Assembly: GCF_023111095.1 (NCBI RefSeq)
Contig: NZ_JALGYW010000007.1
Coordinates: forward strand, 124,001-188,000
Length of the DNA: 64,000 nucleotides
Direction of reading: 5' to 3'
Origin: Maribellus sp. YY47
GTDB taxonomy: Bacteria > Bacteroidota > Bacteroidia > Bacteroidales > Prolixibacteraceae
Shown: in pieces, positions 44,675 to 54,256 of the stretch
How the letters are laid out: each line of letters begins with the position of its first letter
Position numbering within the stretch: the stretch's first letter is position 1
The notes under the pieces: model-generated
Seen by the model: only the letters and a program-made list of their open reading frames with translations
Databases searched by the model: none
What the model was told of the DNA's origin: nothing
Program-made: the position numbers and the translations under genes

Positions 44675-47494
44675 ATGCCAAACCAAAATCCTGAGCAAAT
44701 AGCAAGAGACCATATTGACAGGCAGTTAGTTGCTTGCGGATGGACTATTCAGGACATCAAAAAGATAAATCTTCATGCTGGTATTGGGGTAGCAATCAGG
44801 GAATATTTAACTGATGTTGGTCCTGCTGACTATGTATTATTTGTTGATGGAAAGCCTTGCGGGATTATTGAAGCAAAAAGGGAAGATGAAGGATTTCGCC
44901 TGAATGTACATGAAGACCAGACTGAGGGTTATGCAATAGCCAAACTCAAACACTTGAATAATGAACCTCTTCCTTATGTTTATCTCAGTACTGGTGAAAT
45001 AACAAGGTTTACCGACTTCACAGACCTAAAACCAAGAGCAAGGGAACTGTTCTGTTTTCACAGACCTGAAACTTTAAGAGATTGGATAAAAAGGGATAAA
45101 TCCCTGCGCAGAAGGTTACATGATTTACCAGCCTTACAAACTGATGGTCTAAGGGAATGCCAGATAAATGCAATTACCAAACTGGAAAATTCATTCAGGG
45201 AAAACAGACCAAGAGCGTTAATTCAAATGGCTACAGGTTCAGGAAAAACCTTTACTGCCATTACAACCATTTACCGTTTACTGAAATTTGCAAAAGCTAA
45301 AAGGATATTATTTCTGGTAGATACTAAAAACCTTGGAGAACAGGCAGAACAGGAATTTATGTCTTTTGTCCCCAATGATGATAACCGGAAATTTACAGAA
45401 TTATACAGCGTTCAACGTTTAAAATCAAGTTATATAGCAACTGACAGTCAGGTTTGCATCAGTACCATTCAACGTTTGTATTCCATTTTAAAAGGAACTG
45501 AGTTGGATGAAAAACTGGAAGAGGAAAATCCAAATGAAAGGAAATACCAGCCAAAGGAGATTCCACCAGTGGAATATGACGCTAAAATGCCCATTGAGTT
45601 TTTTGATTTCATTGTAATTGATGAATGCCACCGTAGCATTTATAATTTGTGGAAGCAGGTTCTGGAATATTATGACGCTTTTGAAATTGGGTTAACAGCA
45701 ACACCTGACAGCAGAACCATTGGATATTTTGACCAGAATCTTGTAAGTGAATATTCTCATGAAATGGCTGTTGCTGATGGGGTAAATGTGGGTTACGATG
45801 TTTTTATTATTGATACTAAAATCACTCAGCAGGGGGGAACTCTCTGGAAAGGGGAATACATTGAACACCGGGAAAGGTTAAGCAGGAAAAAGAGGCTGGA
45901 ATTACAGGATGAGGATGAAAACTATTCTGCTCAGCAGTTGGATAAAGATGTAGTGAATCCCAATCAAATCAGAACTATTATTCGCAGTTTCAAAGAACAT
46001 TTACCAAATATTTTCAAAGAGAGGTTTGATAAGGATGGAGTTTTTGAGGTTCCCAAAACTTTAATATTTGCAAAAACAGATTCACATGCTGATGACATTA
46101 TCCAGATTGTAAGGGAAGAATTTGCAGAAGAAAACCGATTCTGTAAAAAGATTACTTATACCTCAGACAAAGACCGTTTGGATGCTGATGAAAATATTCT
46201 GGAAAAAGGAGAAGACCCAAAAACAACTTTGGCTCAGTTCAGAAATGGTTATCATCCAAGAATAGCTGTTACCGTTGATATGATAGCAACAGGTACAGAT
46301 GTAAAACCTTTGGAGTGTTTGCTTTTTATGCGTGATGTAAAAAGCCGCAATTACTTTGAGCAGATGAAAGGTAGGGGAACAAGAACTGTTGACCTTGATA
46401 CATTGAGAAAAGTTACCCCTTCTGCCAAAACCACCAAAGACCATTTTGTAATTGTTGATGCCATTGGTGTTAACCGTAGCCTGAAAACTGACAGCAGACC
46501 ATTGGAGAAAAAGCCTGGCATTCCATTAAAAGATTTGCTACAGGCAATTGCAGTTGGAGTAAGGGAAGAAGATTTGTTTACATCATTAGCTAACAGGTTA
46601 ACTCGTTTAGACAAACAAATTACACCAAAAGAAAAACAGAAGTTTGCTGAAAAGGCAGATGGTAAAAGTATTTCGCAGGTGGTAAAAGAGTTGCTAAATG
46701 CTTTTAATCCTGATGTGCTGGAAGGAATTGAGACCAAAGTAAAAAATGATTACATAGGCGCTGCACCTGATGATATAGAAAAAGCCATTCTATATGAAAC
46801 CGAAAAGTTAAAGGATGAGGCTGCCAAAGTCTTCACAGGTGAATTGAATGAATACATTGAAAATGTTCGTAAAGCACATGAGCAAAGGATAGATACAGCC
46901 AATCCTGATGAGGTGGTTCATGTGGGTTGGGATAAGGAAAACAAGGATAAGTCAGCAGAACTGGTAATTGAATTTTCAGCGTGGATGCAGCAGCACAAGG
47001 ATGAATTAACTGCATTGCAGATTTTCTATAACCAACCTTATAGAAGACGAGAACTCACTTACACCATGATTAAGGAAGTGCTGGAAAAACTGCAAAGTGA
47101 CAAACCATTACTTGCACCGCTGCATGTTTGGAGAGCTTATGAAGCCTTGGAAGAATGTAATGGTTCGCCAAGAAATGAATTGACAGCCATAGTTTCACTT
47201 ATCCGCAAAGTAAGTGGGTTGGATGCTGTTCTTACAGCCTACGATAAAACAGTGGATAAGAATTTTCAGGAATGGGTATTTAAAAAACAGGCTGGTGCTG
47301 TAAAGTTTAATGAAGAACAAATGTTATGGCTCAGGATGATTAAGGACTATGTAATCAGCAGTTTTCATATTGAAAAGGATGATTTTGATTACAACCCTTT
47401 TAATGCTCAGGGTGGATTGGGCAAAATGTGGCAGCTTTTTGGAGAGCAGACAGAGGAGATTATTAATGAATTAAATGAGGTATTAGCAGCATAA
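44675..47494 (+). CDS. hsdR: Type I restriction enzyme, R (motor/nuclease) subunit
   Basis: ATP-dependent DNA translocase and endonuclease of a type I R-M system, 939 aa. The N-terminal nuclease has D52 and EAK (Glu66, Lys68) of a PD-(D/E)XK site. The SF2 helicase core shows ATGSGKT near residue 187, IDECHRS (DECH box) near residue 315 and TGTDVKPLECLLFMR further on. The C-terminal helical part ends in EEIINELNEVLAA and should bind the methylase. It is the first gene of the hsdR-hsdS-abi-deiminase-hsdM array, with 1 nt between it and hsdS. Intact. Confidence 0.95.
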   Translation: MPNQNPEQIARDHIDRQLVACGWTIQDIKKINLHAGIGVAIREYLTDVGPADYVLFVDGKPCGIIEAKREDEGFRLNVHEDQTEGYAIAKLKHLNNEPLPYVYLSTGEITRFTDFTDLKPRARELFCFHRPETLRDWIKRDKSLRRRLHDLPALQTDGLRECQINAITKLENSFRENRPRALIQMATGSGKTFTAITTIYRLLKFAKAKRILFLVDTKNLGEQAEQEFMSFVPNDDNRKFTELYSVQRLKSSYIATDSQVCISTIQRLYSILKGTELDEKLEEENPNERKYQPKEIPPVEYDAKMPIEFFDFIVIDECHRSIYNLWKQVLEYYDAFEIGLTATPDSRTIGYFDQNLVSEYSHEMAVADGVNVGYDVFIIDTKITQQGGTLWKGEYIEHRERLSRKKRLELQDEDENYSAQQLDKDVVNPNQIRTIIRSFKEHLPNIFKERFDKDGVFEVPKTLIFAKTDSHADDIIQIVREEFAEENRFCKKITYTSDKDRLDADENILEKGEDPKTTLAQFRNGYHPRIAVTVDMIATGTDVKPLECLLFMRDVKSRNYFEQMKGRGTRTVDLDTLRKVTPSAKTTKDHFVIVDAIGVNRSLKTDSRPLEKKPGIPLKDLLQAIAVGVREEDLFTSLANRLTRLDKQITPKEKQKFAEKADGKSISQVVKELLNAFNPDVLEGIETKVKNDYIGAAPDDIEKAILYETEKLKDEAAKVFTGELNEYIENVRKAHEQRIDTANPDEVVHVGWDKENKDKSAELVIEFSAWMQQHKDELTALQIFYNQPYRRRELTYTMIKEVLEKLQSDKPLLAPLHVWRAYEALEECNGSPRNELTAIVSLIRKVSGLDAVLTAYDKTVDKNFQEWVFKKQAGAVKFNEEQMLWLRMIKDYVISSFHIEKDDFDYNPFNAQGGLGKMWQLFGEQTEEIINELNEVLAA

Positions 47495-47495
47495 A

Positions 47496-48695
47496 ATGGC
47501 TTTAGGACGTAAACCAATTGAAATAGTAAACGAAGGCAAACATCAACTTTTAGTAAAAGCTGAACATTGGAACAGGATTTATTTAAAGGAAGTTGCCAAA
47601 GTTCAAAATGGATATGCTTTTAGTTCAAAAAATTTTGTAAAAACAGGTGGCTTACCATTAATCAGAATACGTGACATTGATAGTACATCAACTGTTGATA
47701 GGTTTGACGGAGAATATTCAGATGAATTTATAGTAACAAAAGGAGATGTACTTATTGGTATGGATGGAGATTTCAAAGTTGCACGTTGGAAAGGTGATGA
47801 TGCTTTGCTTAATCAACGGGTATGTAGAATTATTCCAAAATCAAAAGATTTTGACTCTAAATTTTTATTTATTTGTTTACAGCCATACCTAAATGCAATT
47901 AATGAAGAAACTTCATCGGTAACTGTTAAACACTTGTCTTCAAGAACCATTGAAGAAATTCCTTTGCCTTATCCACCTCTTCCTGAACAACAAGCCATTG
48001 TCTCCAAAATAGAAGAACTACTCAGTGATTTGGAAAACGGGAAACAGCAATTGATATTGGCACAACAACAAATAAAAATTTACAGGCAAAGTTTGTTAAA
48101 ATGGGCATTTGAAGGAAAACTCACCAACAAAAATGTGAAAGAAGGGGAGTTGCCAGAGGGATGGAAGATTGCTCCCCTTGGAAATATATGTGATATGAAA
48201 GCTGGTTTTTTTGTAAAGGCTGTTGAAATCCAAAAAGAATATAATGAAGGACTGTTTCCTTGTTATGGTGGAAATGGATTAAGAGGTTATACTGAATCAT
48301 ACACACACAAAGGCACATTTTCTCTTATAGGTAGACAAGGAGCTTTGTGTGGCAATGTGCATCGGGTTAATGGAGTTTTCCACGCTACCGAACACGCAGT
48401 TGTCACTTCTGCAAAAGATGGAATTGACACAGATTGGTTATTTCATAAATTAACAGCAATGAAATTGAATCAATATTCTGCTGGTGCAGCTCAACCTGGT
48501 CTTTCTGTAAATAAACTTTTAAAAATCGAAGTCTTATTCCCAACACTCAAAGAACAAAAACTCATCGTTGATGAATTGGAAAGCAAACTAACTGTTTGCG
48601 ATAAAATTGAAGAAACCATCAGCCAAAGTTTGCAGCAAGCAGAATCATTAAGGCAGAGTATTTTAAAAAAGGCGTTTGAAGGGAAACTGGTATAA
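47496..48695 (+). CDS. hsdS: Type I restriction enzyme, S (specificity) subunit
   Basis: A 399-aa specificity subunit with two target-recognition domains and two conserved coiled-coil spacers. Spacer 1 is at about residues 155-215 (PPLPEQQAIVSKIEELLSDL, then LLKWAFEGKL), spacer 2 at the C-terminus (LKEQKLIVDELESKLTVCDK, ILKKAFEGKL). The repeated AFEGKL confirms the two-half design. TRD 1 opens VQNGYAFSSKNF; TRD 2 opens MKAGFFVKAVEI. Specificity cannot be read from sequence. Direct neighbour of hsdR. Confidence 0.95.
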   Translation: MALGRKPIEIVNEGKHQLLVKAEHWNRIYLKEVAKVQNGYAFSSKNFVKTGGLPLIRIRDIDSTSTVDRFDGEYSDEFIVTKGDVLIGMDGDFKVARWKGDDALLNQRVCRIIPKSKDFDSKFLFICLQPYLNAINEETSSVTVKHLSSRTIEEIPLPYPPLPEQQAIVSKIEELLSDLENGKQQLILAQQQIKIYRQSLLKWAFEGKLTNKNVKEGELPEGWKIAPLGNICDMKAGFFVKAVEIQKEYNEGLFPCYGGNGLRGYTESYTHKGTFSLIGRQGALCGNVHRVNGVFHATEHAVVTSAKDGIDTDWLFHKLTAMKLNQYSAGAAQPGLSVNKLLKIEVLFPTLKEQKLIVDELESKLTVCDKIEETISQSLQQAESLRQSILKKAFEGKLV

Positions 48696-48706
48696 CTAAT
48701 ATAGAC

Positions 48707-50026
48707 ATGAAAAAGATAAAAACATTTGATACTTTTTTCTGGTGGAGTGCAGCAGCATTCATTTTAGTTGTTGCACTTATTAGTTTTTTTCCAGCATGGT
48801 TTACTGCTTCTTTTAGCAAGTACAATTTTACAACTACTGGACAGATAGGAGATACAATTGGTGGAATAATGGGACCATTTATTGCAATTGCTGCTGCTGC
48901 ATTAACTTTTTTAGCATTTTGGGTTCAGTATAAAGCTAATGAACAACAGAAACAGGATATTAAGGATTTAAAAGAAAGGGGAGAAATTGAAAAATTAGAA
49001 GCTAAATTTTTTGAATTAGTTAAACTTCATAGAGATAACGTTTCTGAATTAACATACAGCCCTTTTAAAAGAGTGCATATTGAAGCCAGTGATGAAGATA
49101 TTATAAAAGAAGAAAAATTTGAAGGAAGGAAGGTATTTAGAGCTATCGATAAAGAATTCAAGAGTTTGTTTGCAGAGTTAAAACATTTTTTTCAAAACAC
49201 AAATGAAATAAATATATATGAGGAATATTATTTAAATCAACTAAAGAAAAACAATGAAATTAATTTAAGAAATATAGATTTTGTCACGTTTGCCCAAATT
49301 GATATTTTATACAGTATCATTTATTTTGGATTAAGTTTTGAAGGGCAAAAAACGTTAGGGGATTTCTTTAAGGGGAGGTACAAACAATCTTTTTTTGAAA
49401 GCATTATTCAATTTGCATCCCTTAAACCCAAAGAGGATTCTGGCTTTTGGAATAAATGGCATTCAATGAATTCTAAAACAACAACAAGAATAAAACATTT
49501 TAACCGCCTTATTCAAGATTGGAATAAAAATGTACAAAAAATAGAAGAGCTTAGAGATGAATGGCAGGTGGATGAAGAATTAGAGTATAAATATAAGTAC
49601 TATAAAAAAGGTAATTACACAAAATACTATGGAGGTCATCAATTCAGATTAGGTCATTACTTTAGGAATCTCTATCAAACAATTACACTTATCAATGATG
49701 ATAAACGGATAGATTTTGTTCAGAAATATTCAAATATCAAGATATTAAGAGGGCAATTATCAACCTTTGAGCAAACAATCATTTTTTTAAATTCTCTTTC
49801 ATCTTTAGGGCGTGTTTGGGAGTTTGAGAGCAGAAACAATCCTGAAAAAGCAATTGAAAAGGATAATCAACTAATCACAAAATATAATTTCATTAAGAAC
49901 ATCTTGAATGATGAAATTATTGAAGGTGTGTATGTTTCTCACTTTTATCCATTGGTTGAATTTGAATCTGGAATTAACGAAGAGAAGAAAAAACAAAGAG
50001 AATTATTAGAAAAACAATATTCGTAA
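48707..50026 (+). CDS. Putative phage abortive-infection membrane protein (AbiC-like)
   Basis: A 439-aa protein with two N-terminal membrane helices (about residues 10-30 and 50-72) joined by GQIGDTIGGIMGPFIAIAAA, then a charged stretch KANEQQKQDIKDLK and a large cytosolic domain with FAQIDILYSIIYFGLSFEG. This layout is that of the putative AbiC family (putAbiC), membrane proteins repeatedly found in defence loci. Mechanism not known. It starts 11 nt after hsdS and lies before the deiminase gene, in the same direction. Confidence 0.82.
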   Translation: MKKIKTFDTFFWWSAAAFILVVALISFFPAWFTASFSKYNFTTTGQIGDTIGGIMGPFIAIAAAALTFLAFWVQYKANEQQKQDIKDLKERGEIEKLEAKFFELVKLHRDNVSELTYSPFKRVHIEASDEDIIKEEKFEGRKVFRAIDKEFKSLFAELKHFFQNTNEINIYEEYYLNQLKKNNEINLRNIDFVTFAQIDILYSIIYFGLSFEGQKTLGDFFKGRYKQSFFESIIQFASLKPKEDSGFWNKWHSMNSKTTTRIKHFNRLIQDWNKNVQKIEELRDEWQVDEELEYKYKYYKKGNYTKYYGGHQFRLGHYFRNLYQTITLINDDKRIDFVQKYSNIKILRGQLSTFEQTIIFLNSLSSLGRVWEFESRNNPEKAIEKDNQLITKYNFIKNILNDEIIEGVYVSHFYPLVEFESGINEEKKKQRELLEKQYS

Positions 50027-50048
50027 TGAGGAAAATTGACAACCTAAA

Positions 50049-50927
50049 ATGCACAAGATGAGAGTCTATATTTCAGAATATCTCAAAAATACTATCCGGG
50101 GTAAGTTGATTACTAATACTCTCAAAGAAATTTTAGGCAAAAAGTTGTCTGAAATTCCCCAAAATAAAAATGAATGGTGTAGGGATTATATGCCTGTCAA
50201 GGGTTATGGTGGTCATTTGGTACTGTTTAAATACAGTCCATCCTACATTGTAGGAAGAACTACACTTGAAAAAACTATTCCTGAACAAAAACAAATATGT
50301 AATAATCTTGGACTTGAATACACAGAGTCTTCTGTAATTCTGGATGGTGGTGCAATTGATATTTTTGAAGATATTGGAATTGTTTCTGACCGTGTAATTT
50401 TTGATAATTGCAGTAGCTGGATGAACCAAGAACCATCAGTTTTAAAAGATATTAAAGAGAGACTGAAACTAAATAAGTTAGTTGTTGTTCCATCTGACCC
50501 ATGGGATTTTACTGGTCATGTTGATGGAATGGTCAGGTTTATCAATAATAATAAGGTGCTAATAAATGACAGTTCAACTATAGATAATGCAATAAAACTA
50601 TGCACTAAGAAGGAGCAGGAGAAATACGAAATGTGGAAAAACAACCTTCATCTTTCATTGAAAAATGCTGGATTAGAAATTGAAGTATTACCATGTGCTG
50701 TTAGCTCAAATGAAGATGATTCAGATACTGATGCTACTGGCATCTATCTCAATTTTCTTTTACTTGAAGATAAAATTATCATGCCATCTTTTGAGCAATA
50801 TCCTGATTATAATAAAGCAGCAAAGAAAAAATTGAAAAACCTATATAATAGAGAGGTACTGCCTGTTGAAGCAGGTTTGTTGGCACAGCATGGAGGAATA
50901 ATTAATTGCGTTACATGGAATTTCTGA
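50049..50927 (+). CDS. Peptidylarginine/agmatine deiminase-family enzyme
   Basis: A 292-aa member of the guanidino-group hydrolase superfamily (pentein fold). All expected catalytic elements are visible: WCRDYMP with Asp46, DGGAID at 99-104, GHVDG with His157 and Asp159, NFLLLED, and the nucleophile Cys287 in GGIINC. Agmatine deiminases normally have GGNIHC there; the His before Cys is Asn. Shorter than typical agmatine deiminases (about 360 aa). It has no signal peptide. Embedded between the Abi gene (22 nt) and hsdM (10 nt). Substrate unknown: protein arginine, agmatine or a nucleotide-linked guanidine are options. ATG 50058 is an alternative start. Confidence 0.85.
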   Translation: MHKMRVYISEYLKNTIRGKLITNTLKEILGKKLSEIPQNKNEWCRDYMPVKGYGGHLVLFKYSPSYIVGRTTLEKTIPEQKQICNNLGLEYTESSVILDGGAIDIFEDIGIVSDRVIFDNCSSWMNQEPSVLKDIKERLKLNKLVVVPSDPWDFTGHVDGMVRFINNNKVLINDSSTIDNAIKLCTKKEQEKYEMWKNNLHLSLKNAGLEIEVLPCAVSSNEDDSDTDATGIYLNFLLLEDKIIMPSFEQYPDYNKAAKKKLKNLYNREVLPVEAGLLAQHGGIINCVTWNF

Positions 50928-50937
50928 AATTTAAAAA

Positions 50938-52419
50938 ATGAATACAAACTCAATAGTATCAAAAGTATGGTCATTCTGCAATCCCCTGCGTGATGTAGGA
51001 GTAGGTTATGGTGACTATCTGGAACAACTTACCTATCTGCTGTTTTTAAAAATGGCAGATGAATATAGCAAACCACCACATAATCGTAATCTGAACATTC
51101 CCTTAGATTACAATTGGGAAAGTTTGACTGACAAAAAAGGAGCAGAACTTGAAATTCATTATGCCAATCTTTTGCGTGAGCTTAGTTCTCAAAAAGGAAT
51201 ACTTGGTCAGATATTCACCAAAAGCCAGAATAAAATTCAAGACCCTGCCATGCTTGGAAAAGTAATTGAAATGATTGGTTCAGAAAAATGGCTGGTTTTA
51301 GGCTCTGATGTAAAAGGAGATATTTATGAAGGATTGCTGGAAAAAAATGCAGAAGATGTTAAAAGTGGAGCAGGGCAATATTTTACACCAAGAGCTTTAA
51401 TTAAAGCAATGGTTGAATGTGTTCAACCTCAGCCAATGCATACCATTGCAGACCCTGCATGTGGCACAGGTGGCTTCTTTTTGGCTGCTTATGATTATCT
51501 GGTATCAAACAACAAACTGGATAAAGAACAAAACAAATTCCTCAAACTTGAAACCTTTTACGGGAATGAAATTGTTGCAGGGACAAGGCGTTTAGCTTTA
51601 ATGAACATGTTCCTTCACAACATTGGTAACATTGACAGTGATAACTTTATTTCTCCTGCTGATGCCTTGATTGCAGCATCACCAACAACCTATGATTATG
51701 TGCTGGCAAATCCACCATTTGGCAAAAAGAGTTCACAGACTTTCACCAATGAAGAAGGAGAATTGGAGAAAGATGATTTAACCTATAACCGTCAGGATTT
51801 TTGGGCAACCACAAGCAATAAACAATTAAATTTTGTACAACATATCAGAACCATGCTTAAAACAACAGGCTCAGCAGCAGTTGTTGTGCCAGATAATGTG
51901 TTATTTGAAGGTGGTGCTGGTGAAACAGTCAGAAAGAAATTACTGGAAACAACAGATTTGCATACCATTCTGCGTCTGCCAACAGGTATTTTCTATGCTC
52001 AGGGCGTAAAAGCCAATGTGATTTTCTTTGATAACAAACCAGCAAGCAAAGACCCATGGACTAAAGAAATATGGGTGTATGATTACCGTACAAATATTCA
52101 CCATACTTTAAAAAAGAATCCTTTAAAACTGGATGATTTAAAAGATTTTATTTCCTGTTATAATCCTTCAAACAGGTTTAAAAGGAAAGAAACTTACAAT
52201 GCAGAAACAAATCCTGAAGGAAATTGGAGAAAATTCAGCTACGAAGAAATTATTGCAAGAGATAAAACCAGTCTGGATATTACATGGCTAAAAGATAAGT
52301 CATTGGCTGACCTTGATAATCTGCCAGACCCAGAAACCATTGCAGAAGATATTATTGAGAACCTTGAAGCAGGATTAGAAAGCTTTAGGGAGATTATGGT
52401 AAAGTTGAATGCCAAATAA
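50938..52419 (+). CDS. hsdM: Type I restriction enzyme, M (methylase) subunit
   Basis: N6-adenine DNA methyltransferase subunit, 493 aa. The N-terminal helical HsdM domain is at residues 5-140 and the catalytic domain begins with AGQYFTPRALI. The SAM motif is ADPACGTGGF near residue 171, and the catalytic motif IV is NPPFG near residue 258. Together with HsdS it modifies target sites to protect host and island DNA. It is the last gene of the five-gene array and is separated from hsdS by the Abi and deiminase genes, which is unusual because M and S are normally adjacent. Confidence 0.95.
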   Translation: MNTNSIVSKVWSFCNPLRDVGVGYGDYLEQLTYLLFLKMADEYSKPPHNRNLNIPLDYNWESLTDKKGAELEIHYANLLRELSSQKGILGQIFTKSQNKIQDPAMLGKVIEMIGSEKWLVLGSDVKGDIYEGLLEKNAEDVKSGAGQYFTPRALIKAMVECVQPQPMHTIADPACGTGGFFLAAYDYLVSNNKLDKEQNKFLKLETFYGNEIVAGTRRLALMNMFLHNIGNIDSDNFISPADALIAASPTTYDYVLANPPFGKKSSQTFTNEEGELEKDDLTYNRQDFWATTSNKQLNFVQHIRTMLKTTGSAAVVVPDNVLFEGGAGETVRKKLLETTDLHTILRLPTGIFYAQGVKANVIFFDNKPASKDPWTKEIWVYDYRTNIHHTLKKNPLKLDDLKDFISCYNPSNRFKRKETYNAETNPEGNWRKFSYEEIIARDKTSLDITWLKDKSLADLDNLPDPETIAEDIIENLEAGLESFREIMVKLNAK

Positions 52420-52804: not shown

Positions 52805-53338
52805 ATGGCTAAACTAACCGATTTCCAGTTTTTAGAGAATGTACTTATTTACAGTTCAAGAATTGCAGTCTACACTGAGAAGCTTGATGAAGGAAATTTT
52901 CTCAATGACAGAAAAACTGTTGATGCAGTGTTATACTGTGTGCTACAATTTGGTAAAAACGTATCCTCAATATCTGACGGTTTTAAGAAAAATCATACTG
53001 AAATTATGGGGATGGATTGGGCAATGTTAGCAATTTTATATTCGGATGACCATTTTGATGAGGAAGAACTTTGGGATATTGTCTATGGAGATGATGTTGG
53101 TATTCTGAAATTCTACCCTGTTATTGAATCAATGTATTTGAGAGAAAGGCAGAAACTAGGGAACAGTGAAATTGCAAGAATACCAGCAAGAGCGTTTAAA
53201 ACAGAAGATACTCTACCTCTAAGAAAAGGGAAGGTGCAAAGTTTTAAGTTTGACGCTTCCATAGATAAAAAGAGAGGTTTTAATCCCATGAATCATATTA
53301 CATCACATAGTTCAATTTGGACTGTAAAAAAGAGATAA
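52805..53338 (+). CDS. HepT-like (HEPN/DUF86) protein with degenerate motif
   Basis: A 177-aa protein. Residues about 8-100 align in pattern with HepT/DUF86 toxins: FLENVLIYSSRIAVYTEKLD, then FLNDRKTVDAVLYCVLQFG, then IMGMDWAMLAILY and EEELWDIVYGDD. In active HepT the GMRNxxxHxY segment carries the RX4-6H catalytic pair; here it reads GMDWAMLAILY, with neither Arg nor His. The C-terminal 75 residues are a basic extension not seen in HepT. No MntA-type nucleotidyltransferase partner is next to it. It is probably not an RNase; it may be a derived sensor or binding protein. Confidence 0.6.
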   Translation: MAKLTDFQFLENVLIYSSRIAVYTEKLDEGNFLNDRKTVDAVLYCVLQFGKNVSSISDGFKKNHTEIMGMDWAMLAILYSDDHFDEEELWDIVYGDDVGILKFYPVIESMYLRERQKLGNSEIARIPARAFKTEDTLPLRKGKVQSFKFDASIDKKRGFNPMNHITSHSSIWTVKKR

Positions 53339-53374
53339 AATAATATCTGTTTAAAAAGTGACAAAACTAAACTA

Positions 53375-54256
53375 ATGAGTACAGATTTAAAGATTAAATA
53401 TCAAGGACAAGCACACGAAATTGATGCTAATGTCTTTATAAATAGCCTTCTTCACACTACAACATTAATTCAGGAGATTAATAGGGAATTAAATACAGGA
53501 GCTAAGATTGAAGTCAAAATAAAAGCTCTTGAAAAGGGTAGTTTTTTAGTTCACATCCAACTGATTGAGACAGTCATAGATTCACTTAAAAACATCTTTA
53601 CTGCTGAAAACATTGCTGTTGGAGGGACTATAATAGGTGGACTAGTAGGATTAGTTGAATTAAAGAAGTTTTTAAAAGGTGATAAGCCTGAAGTTATAAA
53701 AAGAGAGGGAGAAGATGTAACAATAAAAAACGGGAAAGGAGATATTACTGTTTTTAAGAATTTTACCGTAAACATGTATCAAACAAACCAAGTTGCAAGA
53801 GATAGTCTTGAACAAGGTTTTGAAACATTAAACAATGATCCCTCTATTGATGGTATTGAGTTCACTGATGTTAATGAAAAACCACTTCTTACTGTAAATA
53901 GGGATGATTTTGGTGATTTGATAACAAGAAGTGAGGAAATATTGAATGGAGATAAAATAACCACCAAAAGTGCAAAGTTGAATATTGTACGATTATCATT
54001 TGATGAAAATCTCAATTGGGAATTTTATTATCATGGGAATAAGATTGGTGCAAGAATAAAAGACCCAAGTTTTTTTGAAAAAATTAATAACGGAGAAACC
54101 TTTGCCAAAGGTGACACTCTTGAAGTTGAACTACAAATCAGACAGAAATTTGATTCAACAGTAAACACATATATAAATAAGTCATATCAAGTCAATCGTA
54201 TAATAAATCATTTTCCAAGGGATGAGCAACAGAAATTGGATTTTGAACGAAATTGA
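53375..54256 (+). CDS. Hypothetical protein with central glycine-rich hydrophobic segment
   Basis: A 293-aa protein. The N-terminal 65 residues (IKYQGQAHEIDANVFINSLL) form a domain seen in many uncharacterised bacterial proteins, then a short hydrophobic stretch AVGGTIIGGLVGLVELKKFL, and a long C-terminal half of beta character (KGDITVFKNFTVNMYQTNQV onward). I cannot name the family. It overlaps the next frame by 35 nt. Its placement in the cargo tail between the HepT-like gene and a truncated frame suggests a defence or competition role, which remains inference. Confidence 0.6.
   Translation: MSTDLKIKYQGQAHEIDANVFINSLLHTTTLIQEINRELNTGAKIEVKIKALEKGSFLVHIQLIETVIDSLKNIFTAENIAVGGTIIGGLVGLVELKKFLKGDKPEVIKREGEDVTIKNGKGDITVFKNFTVNMYQTNQVARDSLEQGFETLNNDPSIDGIEFTDVNEKPLLTVNRDDFGDLITRSEEILNGDKITTKSAKLNIVRLSFDENLNWEFYYHGNKIGARIKDPSFFEKINNGETFAKGDTLEVELQIRQKFDSTVNTYINKSYQVNRIINHFPRDEQQKLDFERN

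Follow-up and report, generated by a model that had tools for sequence, protein, structure and literature searches.

A short agmatine-deiminase-like pentein is encoded within a type I restriction-modification (R-M) operon of Maribellus sp. YY47, and it belongs to a subfamily whose genes recurrently adjoin, and often overlap, genes of DNA-directed enzymes. The operon is located in the window, that is, the whole stretch of 64,000 nucleotides analysed here (positions 124,001 to 188,000 of contig NZ_JALGYW010000007.1). The deiminase and its exchangeable partner very probably form a coupled module of a putative defence type. The best explanation overall, to which a probability of roughly 40% is assigned, is that the deiminase module prepares modified foreign DNA for a partner that destroys it. 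The arrangement in the window is real and no description of it was found in the literature searched, where the titles and abstract openings of open-access articles made no mention of a deiminase that takes part in phage defence or adjoins DNA enzymes of this kind.

The operon comprises five genes in the order hsdR-hsdS-putAbiC-deiminase-hsdM (44675-52419), all on the plus strand and with every frame open (Table 1). The initial annotation had placed the deiminase gene between hsdS and hsdM, after an AbiC-like gene and on one strand with them, and this is borne out by the ORF coordinates and Pfam matches. The gaps of 10-22 nt which it reported are correct for the genes that it named (11, 22 and 10 nt), while hsdR and hsdS are separated by 1 nt. 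An alternative ATG of the deiminase gene lies at 50058, three codons downstream, and may be the real start. With hsdR, hsdM and hsdS intact within one operon, the locus is a type I R-M system. The same proteins scored below the curated cut-offs of MADS (HsdM, 99.8 bits vs 720; HsdS, 34 vs 400), of the BREX-1 methyltransferase (HsdM, 30.8 of 500 bits) and of the Dnd restriction enzyme (HsdR, 38.7 of 600 bits).

Table 1. Genes of the type I R-M operon that contains the short deiminase
Gene and product	Coordinates	Strand	Supporting matches
hsdR, type I restriction/translocation subunit, EcoEI-like C-terminus	44675..47494	+	Pfam ResIII 142 bits, EcoEI_R_C 138 bits, HSDR_N 34 bits; PADLOC REase_I
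hsdS, specificity subunit	47496..48695	+	Pfam Methylase_S 145 bits, two target-recognition stretches; PADLOC Specificity_I 283 bits
putAbiC, putative abortive-infection protein	48707..50026	+	Pfam PF16872 57 bits (cut-off 22)
Short agmatine-deiminase-like pentein	50049..50927	+	PAD_porph PF04371 83.3 bits (cut-off 25); catalytic residues intact
hsdM, N6-adenine methyltransferase subunit	50938..52419	+	Pfam N6_Mtase 233 bits, HsdM_N 47 bits; PADLOC MTase_I 644 bits

The pentein catalytic set noticed earlier (Asp46, His157, Asp159, Cys287) was found at the positions given and is conserved throughout the subfamily: Trp43, Asp46, Asp99, His157, Asp159 and Asn235 are present in all 107 aligned short-deiminase rows, Cys287 in 106 (the remaining row has a gap) and Trp290 in 104. 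These four catalytic residues and the pentein fold are shared with AguA (TIGR03380) and the Porphyromonas-type PAD (PF04371). Unlike AguA, however, the short deiminases are mostly 260-300 aa in length and have Gly160 where Asp is found in 20 of 30 AguA-type rows. The Glu-Gly-Gly motif of AguA is likewise absent, position 99 being Asp in 107/107 short rows; the AguA-type rows have Glu (24/30) or Asp (6/30) there, so that some of these controls may not be true AguA. The AlphaFold2 model of the window deiminase (pLDDT 93) found its top solved match in the agmatine deiminase of Campylobacter jejuni (6b2w, TM 0.73 on the query), and the solved structures nearest to the short deiminase are enzymes acting on agmatine. 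The median pI of the short deiminases is 5.18 (trimmed rows), compared with 5.01 for AguA-type proteins and 6.03 for the window deiminase; being acidic, the short deiminase looks unlike a DNA binder. The names given to the window protein by Pfam and NCBI read agmatine or peptidyl-arginine deiminase.

Such names would suit an agmatine deiminase copy that is merely a chance passenger of a mobile restriction island, but this explanation appears very improbable. Adjacency is conserved across distant loci, and the genome possesses a separate AguA-type gene, which is located on another contig and adjoins a gene of a 290-aa family that we take, from its sequence, to be AguB-like. The window deiminase itself reaches 41.9 of the 381.8 bits set for the AguA equivalog TIGR03380 and 37 of 483 bits for NF010070. 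An AguB-like gene adjoins 13 of 20 AguA-type control genes but was detected nowhere in the 160 locus records of the short deiminases and their relatives, and the neighbours of the window deiminase are putAbiC and hsdM instead. The possibility that the homologues occur mainly in agmatine/putrescine operons, raised in the initial annotation, was thereby ruled out. We conclude that the window deiminase is not the agmatine deiminase of this genome. As far as the available part of PMC13060105 goes, the agmatine pathway described there is also unconnected with the defence island of that paper.

At 42 of the 79 genome loci, a same-strand gene encoding an AAG-fold, HNH-type or UDG-superfamily protein was detected one or two genes from the deiminase (19 AAG-fold, 12 HNH, 10 UDG, 1 both), and all 42 fall among the 57 loci with a deiminase shorter than 380 aa. 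The 79 loci derive from 80 retained out of at least 541 candidates, with L081 dropped as having no mapped deiminase ORF; L049, whose contig is also in L098, was omitted from one locus set. When starts are taken from the longest ORF, 40 of the 43 partner genes overlap the deiminase gene or lie within 30 nt of it, including 16 with an overlap of exactly 4 nt. Across all 116 first-survey records, overlap with the deiminase gene was seen for 45 of 62 partner genes, and a UDG-family gene directly precedes the deiminase in 13 records. Meanwhile, none of the three families was found at AguA-type controls, either at 30 loci with 1.5-kb flanks or at 20 loci with ~20 kb, which represent 33 different genes (16 are common to both sets and one is double in the set of 30). 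Partners were also present in regions that had not been used for model building, namely in 7 of 10 new regions and in 9 of 22 of a second set (11 of its 33 regions repeat earlier loci; L235 repeats L108). The 13 partnerless regions of the latter include the type I locus L312, one fragment and six members of one partnerless clade. None of the three partners occurs at 37 of the 79 genome loci, 22 of which carry the long form, mostly from Bacteroidales. The arrangement described by the initial annotation stands, but the usual partners, glycosylase-like and HNH-type proteins, had been missed, and the type I R-M operon represents a single form of a more general pattern.

The commonest partner (family c0) is an AAG-fold protein, predicted from its structural model to be glycosylase-like. 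The five best Foldseek rows of the model (pLDDT 84.7) are all AAG, and the structural Z was 12.8 for AAG vs 4.5 for the next fold. Although the family has the fold of AAG/MPG, the five members tested show no Pfam match above the cut-off, and its sequence profile retrieved no AAG from the PDB, the likeness being found by structure only. In a direct comparison, the profile gave a colinear match to bacterial AAG with an hhalign E of 3e-4 and a probability of only 40%; the EiEfYY motif aligns with ETEAY of AAG, and the invariant Glu74 is aligned to the first glutamate of the latter. This glutamate has a catalytic role in AAG. The AAG-like gene was encountered without a deiminase at 6 of 15 places. 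As for the other families, one of the two UDG-superfamily partners tested (L063) matches PF03167 and the other (L092) has no Pfam match, and the HNH-type assignment is based on a Pfam match of L068 at 16 bits, below the cut-off of 21, plus a motif seen by eye. AAG and UDG families remove hypoxanthine, xanthine or uracil, and they would fit as removers of the product if the deiminase acted on adenine, cytosine or guanine of foreign DNA. Deamination of ordinary bases is nevertheless scarcely credible, as it leaves the HNH and type I partners unexplained and would endanger the cell's own DNA; moreover, we know of no pentein that deaminates ordinary DNA bases.

Partners have been exchanged repeatedly in the course of deiminase evolution. 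At least 19 partner changes were counted on a tree of 111 rows, which omits L077, L097, L149, L080, L056 and L035 (fragments, fusions and odd rows) together with four duplicate cores, and at least 21 on a tree of 139 rows. Deiminases sharing 73-91% identity differ in whether their partner is of the HNH or the UDG type, and in the phage record L035 an AAG-like domain is fused to the deiminase. The fusion, as well as the tight coupling evident from the 4-nt overlaps, could also be accounted for if the deiminase citrullinated the nuclease or glycosylase and thus kept it off or switched it on, in the manner of a modifying antitoxin. However, the partners are of unrelated fold and are exchanged among near relatives of one deiminase, so that a single deiminase would need to recognise proteins unrelated to each other, and type I subunits besides, which makes modification of the partner improbable. 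The existence in nature of near-identical deiminases with two different partners, such as those of the L061/L085 type (88% identical), one paired with HNH and one with UDG, renders a concrete test possible.

Relatives of the short deiminase adjoin an hsd gene in four further type I operons (L072, L086, L148, L312), and the HsdM proteins of these and of the window share 25-31% pairwise identity; no hsd match was obtained at 20 AguA-type control loci (~20 kb). Uniqueness of the association to this genome, which the initial annotation had allowed for, is ruled out by these four operons. The pairing of the abi and deiminase genes, by contrast with what had been envisaged there, did not prove to be a recurrent unit: when the 2,893 ORFs of the 160 locus records were searched with the Abi protein (phmmer), no match was obtained at E≤1. 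Genes of modification-dependent restriction accompany two of the type I operons. In L312, the deiminase gene is directly followed by genes for an EVE/AAA protein and a component of McrBC, and it could there serve McrBC instead of the type I system. In L072, GmrSD is found two genes before the deiminase. A viral subclade adjoins a phosphatidylserine-decarboxylase-like gene at 5 loci (PF02666 checked for one). Among 36 other genomes of the genus, short-deiminase copies above 85 bits were present in G732 (two), G736, G759 and G765, in every case with an AAG-like or HNH-type neighbour. The R-M arrangement of the window is absent from all five regions, the only hsdR match being one of 12 bits (L229), and the exact window operon was thus not seen elsewhere.

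Within the class, the distribution is patchy (19 places above 95 bits in 395 genomes), and relatives are carried on plasmids and phages. This, together with the GmrSD, McrBC and type I neighbours and the exchange of partners, speaks against a role of the pair in DNA repair or nucleotide sanitation, that is, in the removal of damaged bases such as guanidino-type guanine oxidation products. The partners do look like repair glycosylases, and some members are partnerless in plain chromosomal settings, yet we consider such a role quite improbable. When 120 flanking genes of either group were screened with PADLOC (E≤1e-10), 341 models were matched at the test loci vs 68 at AguA-type loci, a hint only, as the models are redundant and the best 25 of each list were viewed; the matches listed include DUF262/SspE, type I MTase and GajB for the test loci and mostly PD-T4-6 for the controls.

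The presence of putAbiC in the window operon, and of an Avs2-like gene 48 nt upstream in L057, agrees with a different division of labour: the phage would be attacked or sensed by the DNA enzyme or type I system, the deiminase, as the separate effector of a second arm, would deplete a guanidino metabolite or citrullinate proteins of the phage or the host, and AbiC would add a third arm in this operon. The fold and acidic pI of the deiminase match those of metabolic deiminases, and PrrC is a precedent for an effector inside an hsd operon. Nonetheless, three unrelated small DNA-directed families recur with the short form, none of them an obvious sensor, and a deiminase acting freely would need no such partners; this arrangement therefore seems rather unlikely.

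According to the reading preferred here, members of the subfamily form swappable two-part modules. The deiminase would most likely hydrolyse a guanidino or amidino group that is carried by a modified base (or nucleotide) in foreign DNA, such as that of phages, and thereby expose the DNA to the partner or mark it for the partner, on the same principle by which BapA acts for Brig3. The partner would be an AAG-fold, HNH-type or UDG-superfamily protein or, in the window, the type I R-M system. The initial annotation had considered R-M subunits, phage proteins or a metabolite as targets, and the pattern of partners makes DNA at least as strong a candidate. That the deiminase performs DNA-unmasking chemistry is a tentative proposal, and the full statement, namely that a pentein acts on guanidino- or amidino-modified foreign DNA on behalf of interchangeable AAG-fold, UDG, HNH or whole type I R-M partners, is more doubtful still. 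If true, it would be the first pentein to act on nucleic acid, as we know of no other, and a metabolic enzyme fold would be tied to the attack on foreign DNA. It would also point to little-known phage DNA modification, since phages whose bases carry guanidino or amidino groups would be expected, and wherever a gene next to such a partner is labelled "agmatine deiminase family protein", a new name would be called for. Speculatively, the phage base deoxyarchaeosine (formamidino-7-deazaguanine), which bears a group of the right kind, may be a candidate substrate; dG+ is treated in the available part of PMC6884629.

In comparison with EcoEI/EcoAI-like type I R-M systems, the window operon likewise has the full hsdR/hsdM/hsdS set, to which the putAbiC and deiminase genes are added between hsdS and hsdM. 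A second counterpart is Brig3-BapA, described in the available text of PMC13160076 as a two-gene operon of a defence island that combines a UDG-superfamily glycosylase with a second hydrolase, the glucosyl hydrolase BapA, on a fragment that also has a predicted ADP-ribosylglycohydrolase gene; the word "deiminase" is absent from its main text. The window contains no UDG-superfamily glycosylase beside a second hydrolase. Elsewhere, UDG-superfamily proteins are among the partners of the short deiminase, and an ADP-ribosylglycohydrolase is encoded nearby in L070, L098 and L225. If the preferred reading is true, the idea embodied in Brig3-BapA would be widened to a modular family with an exchangeable DNA-destroying half. 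In contrast to Brig3-BapA as presented in that text, the constant part here, known from its genes, is the deiminase, and its range of partners extends to the AAG-fold and HNH-type families and to type I R-M.

The locus at 44675-52419 constitutes a single operon of five genes with every frame open on the plus strand, the intergenic gaps from hsdR to hsdM being 1, 11, 22 and 10 nt, which bears out the initial annotation of a deiminase embedded in a type I R-M operon; the catalytic residues are also present at the positions then assigned. At 41.9 bits the window deiminase lies far under the 381.8-bit agmatine-deiminase equivalog cut-off, and a family profile run over 395 genomes of the phylum produced a clean split, with 7 places at 279-403 bits and the remaining listed matches at or below 125. 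The protein therefore belongs to a subfamily separate from agmatine deiminase. The same genome carries, on a different contig, a second PF04371 gene (404 bits vs 83 for the window deiminase), which adjoins a gene labelled AguB-like from its sequence (L251). Downstream of the operon, the HepT-like and LAPAL-motif proteins, the latter scoring 143 bits to the PADLOC candidate PDC-S42, possibly form a further defence unit.

The AlphaFold2 model of the window deiminase (pLDDT 93) adopts the pentein fold, its nearest solved structure being the substrate-bound agmatine deiminase of Campylobacter jejuni (TM 0.73 on query). In 107 short-family rows Trp43, Asp46, Asp99, His157, Asp159, Gly160 and Asn235 are invariant, and the sole departure at Cys287 is one gap; among 30 AguA-type rows (ordinary agmatine deiminases), Asp99 is replaced by Glu in 24 and Gly160 by Asp in 20. 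Because of these conserved residues and differences, the short deiminase is expected to be an active enzyme whose substrate may differ from agmatine.

Relatives were gathered by a class-wide search, a scan of a species-genome collection (best 80 loci), viral contigs (14 loci) and plasmid and phage records, and clustering of their neighbour genes revealed three recurrent partner families. The first has nothing above the Pfam cut-off; among solved structures (top five Foldseek rows) the sole strong matches to its model are alkyladenine DNA glycosylase (AAG; Z 12.8, next fold 4.5), and across 153 columns its profile aligns to that of bacterial AAG with the glutamates coinciding (E 3e-4, probability 40%). 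Strong structural matches to one such model (L070) were also seen in the giant viruses Hyperionvirus and Catovirus (BFVD, E 2e-13 and 9e-11). The second family comprises small HNH-type proteins with paired cysteine motifs seen by eye (L068: HNH 16 bits, helix-turn-helix 17 bits, both below cut-off). The third belongs to the uracil-DNA-glycosylase (UDG) superfamily; of two members tested, L063 matches PF03167 at 41 bits and L092 has no Pfam match. The AAG-like and UDG-like partners that were tested had no PADLOC match, and neither did the window deiminase and putAbiC protein.

A same-strand partner lies 1-2 genes from the deiminase in 42 of the 79 mapped genome loci among the best 80 (19 AAG-like, 12 HNH, 10 UDG, 1 both), all 42 falling within the 57 loci with a deiminase below 380 aa. 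The partner overlaps the deiminase or lies within 30 nt in 40/43 cases, with an exact 4-nt overlap in 16/43, and one protein of L035, a human faecal phage scaffold (MT836602, marked unverified), joins an AAG-like domain to the deiminase. The remaining 22/79 loci encode, without such a partner, a long form of 389-458 aa, mostly assigned to Bacteroidales by record title (L078, L083, L088-L090, L100-L103, L106 and others among L114-L136). Its N-terminal extension is hydrophobic in the members inspected, and a part resembling it is a separate gene in L131. The genome with the split deiminase (L185) has a second pair (L055). A viral subclade of the deiminase (L139, L140, L143, L144, L145) lies beside a gene resembling phosphatidylserine decarboxylase (L143: PF02666 confirmed); in some of these loci the surrounding genes look, by eye, like those for phage structural proteins.

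At 30 AguA-type loci with 1.5-kb flanks the three families were absent, and 20 AguA-type loci spanning about 20 kb contained neither them nor an hsd match; the two control sets comprise 33 different genes. Two later surveys, which took no part in model building, agree in part with the partner pattern. Among near relatives a partner occurs in 7/10 new regions (AAG-like in L225, L226, L230, L231; HNH in L227, L228, L229), the other three being two longer deiminases and one fragment, one of them with an opposite-strand AAG-like gene. In another family a partner occurs in 9/22 new regions; the 13/22 with none count against the pattern. These include a type I locus (L312), a fragment (L316), a locus with an overlapping 189-aa gene (L297) and six loci (L306, L308, L309, L311, L314, L315) whose short deiminases form one clade, lie in chromosomal surroundings of plain appearance and have possibly been reassigned to another role; L303, L304, L310 and L313 likewise have none. 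The L297 gene has no Pfam match; inspection by eye shows what may be a nuclease-like motif (YYEFKTS), and the gene perhaps represents a fourth partner family. The AAG-like gene stands without a deiminase at 6/15 places.

Features and gene orders in the window and at related loci
Locus	Coordinates	Strand	Feature or gene order
Window	44675-52419	+	hsdR - hsdS - putative abortive-infection gene (PF16872) - short deiminase - hsdM
Window	50049-50927	+	Short deiminase
Window	52805-54256		HepT-like protein (below cut-off) and LAPAL-motif protein
L072			GmrSD - HNH - deiminase - hsdM - 289-aa gene - hsdS
L086			deiminase - hsdR (92 nt apart) - PD-(D/E)XK nuclease - hsdM - hsdS
L148			hsdR - deiminase - hsdM - YhcG-type nuclease - hsdS
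L312			hsdM - hsdS - deiminase - EVE/AAA protein - McrBC component - small ORF - hsdR
L035	6972-8516		AAG-like domain and deiminase in one protein
L037	10599-11738		379-aa gene near deiminase
L057	3862-5010		382-aa gene near deiminase
L070	5707-6438		AAG-like partner
L185	9649-11116		AAG-like gene and deiminase, the latter split across two ORFs
L297	8451-9017		189-aa gene, 14-nt overlap with deiminase

On a 111-row tree the partner type switches no fewer than 19 times; a 139-row tree, many inner branches of which are weak, gives at least 21 switches. The clearest exchanges are evident without any tree, from deiminase identity between loci with an HNH and a UDG partner: L061 (HNH) vs L085 or L038 (UDG), 88-91%; L128 (HNH) vs L092 or L096 (UDG), 80%; L119 (HNH) vs L135 (UDG), 77%; and L046 (HNH) vs L066 (UDG), 73%.

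Among 160 locus records (116 + 11 + 33, partly duplicates), an hsd gene adjoins the deiminase at four loci beyond the window (L072, L086, L148, L312), confirming recurrence in other genomes. Their HsdM proteins and that of the window are 25-31% identical pairwise, therefore the deiminase has joined distantly related type I systems. L148 is an IMG/VR contig and perhaps a bacterial mobile element, since its first two genes resemble recombinases by eye. On the 139-row tree the window deiminase groups with those of L312 and L057 in a single clade (99%), the L057 deiminase lying 48 nt downstream of an Avs2-like gene. The listed genes of L057 and L037 have similar starts by eye, the former being followed by a PDC-M27B/ZacB-like gene; a link to Azaca-like systems is possible.

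The association of deiminase, DNA enzymes and R-M is real, recurrent and non-metabolic. The Abi protein and deiminase, initially proposed as a defence pair, did not prove to be the unit, which is instead the deiminase with an exchangeable DNA-directed enzyme; the window operon seems to represent the type I version of that unit. Titles and abstract openings of the open-access papers listed in literature searches yielded no description of this arrangement.

One constant enzyme combined with unrelated DNA-directed enzymes suggests that DNA is the common element. By analogy with BapA of the Brig3 operon, the deiminase would act on a modified base, taking off or converting its guanidino or amidino group, and the DNA so altered would become exposed to the partner enzyme. 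The acidic nature of the deiminase counts against such unmasking, and no pentein is known to have a nucleic acid as target; the main rival explanation makes the deiminase an effector arm of its own. The neighbours EVE-McrBC and GmrSD belong to the modification-dependent types of restriction, in keeping with the Brig glycosylase parallel. Groups of the kind that unmasking would require do exist in the DNA of phages, as deoxyarchaeosine illustrates: this phage base bears a formamidine group (PMC5485725) and protects against many restriction enzymes (PMC6884629). Nothing connects it with the deiminase.

The Brig3-BapA precedent fits the deiminase-partner pairs closely. As reported in PMC13160076, Brig3 is a UDG-superfamily glycosylase acting against 5hmC DNA in a two-gene operon with BapA, which strips glucose from glucosyl-5hmC and so broadens the Brig3 target range. 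Two UDG-superfamily genes lie near the deiminase in L231 (26.3 and 24.4 bits; cut-off 24.3). The Brig3-BapA fragment, as described there, also held a predicted ADP-ribosylglycohydrolase gene, and such a gene likewise adjoins the short deiminase at three loci (L070, L098, L225).
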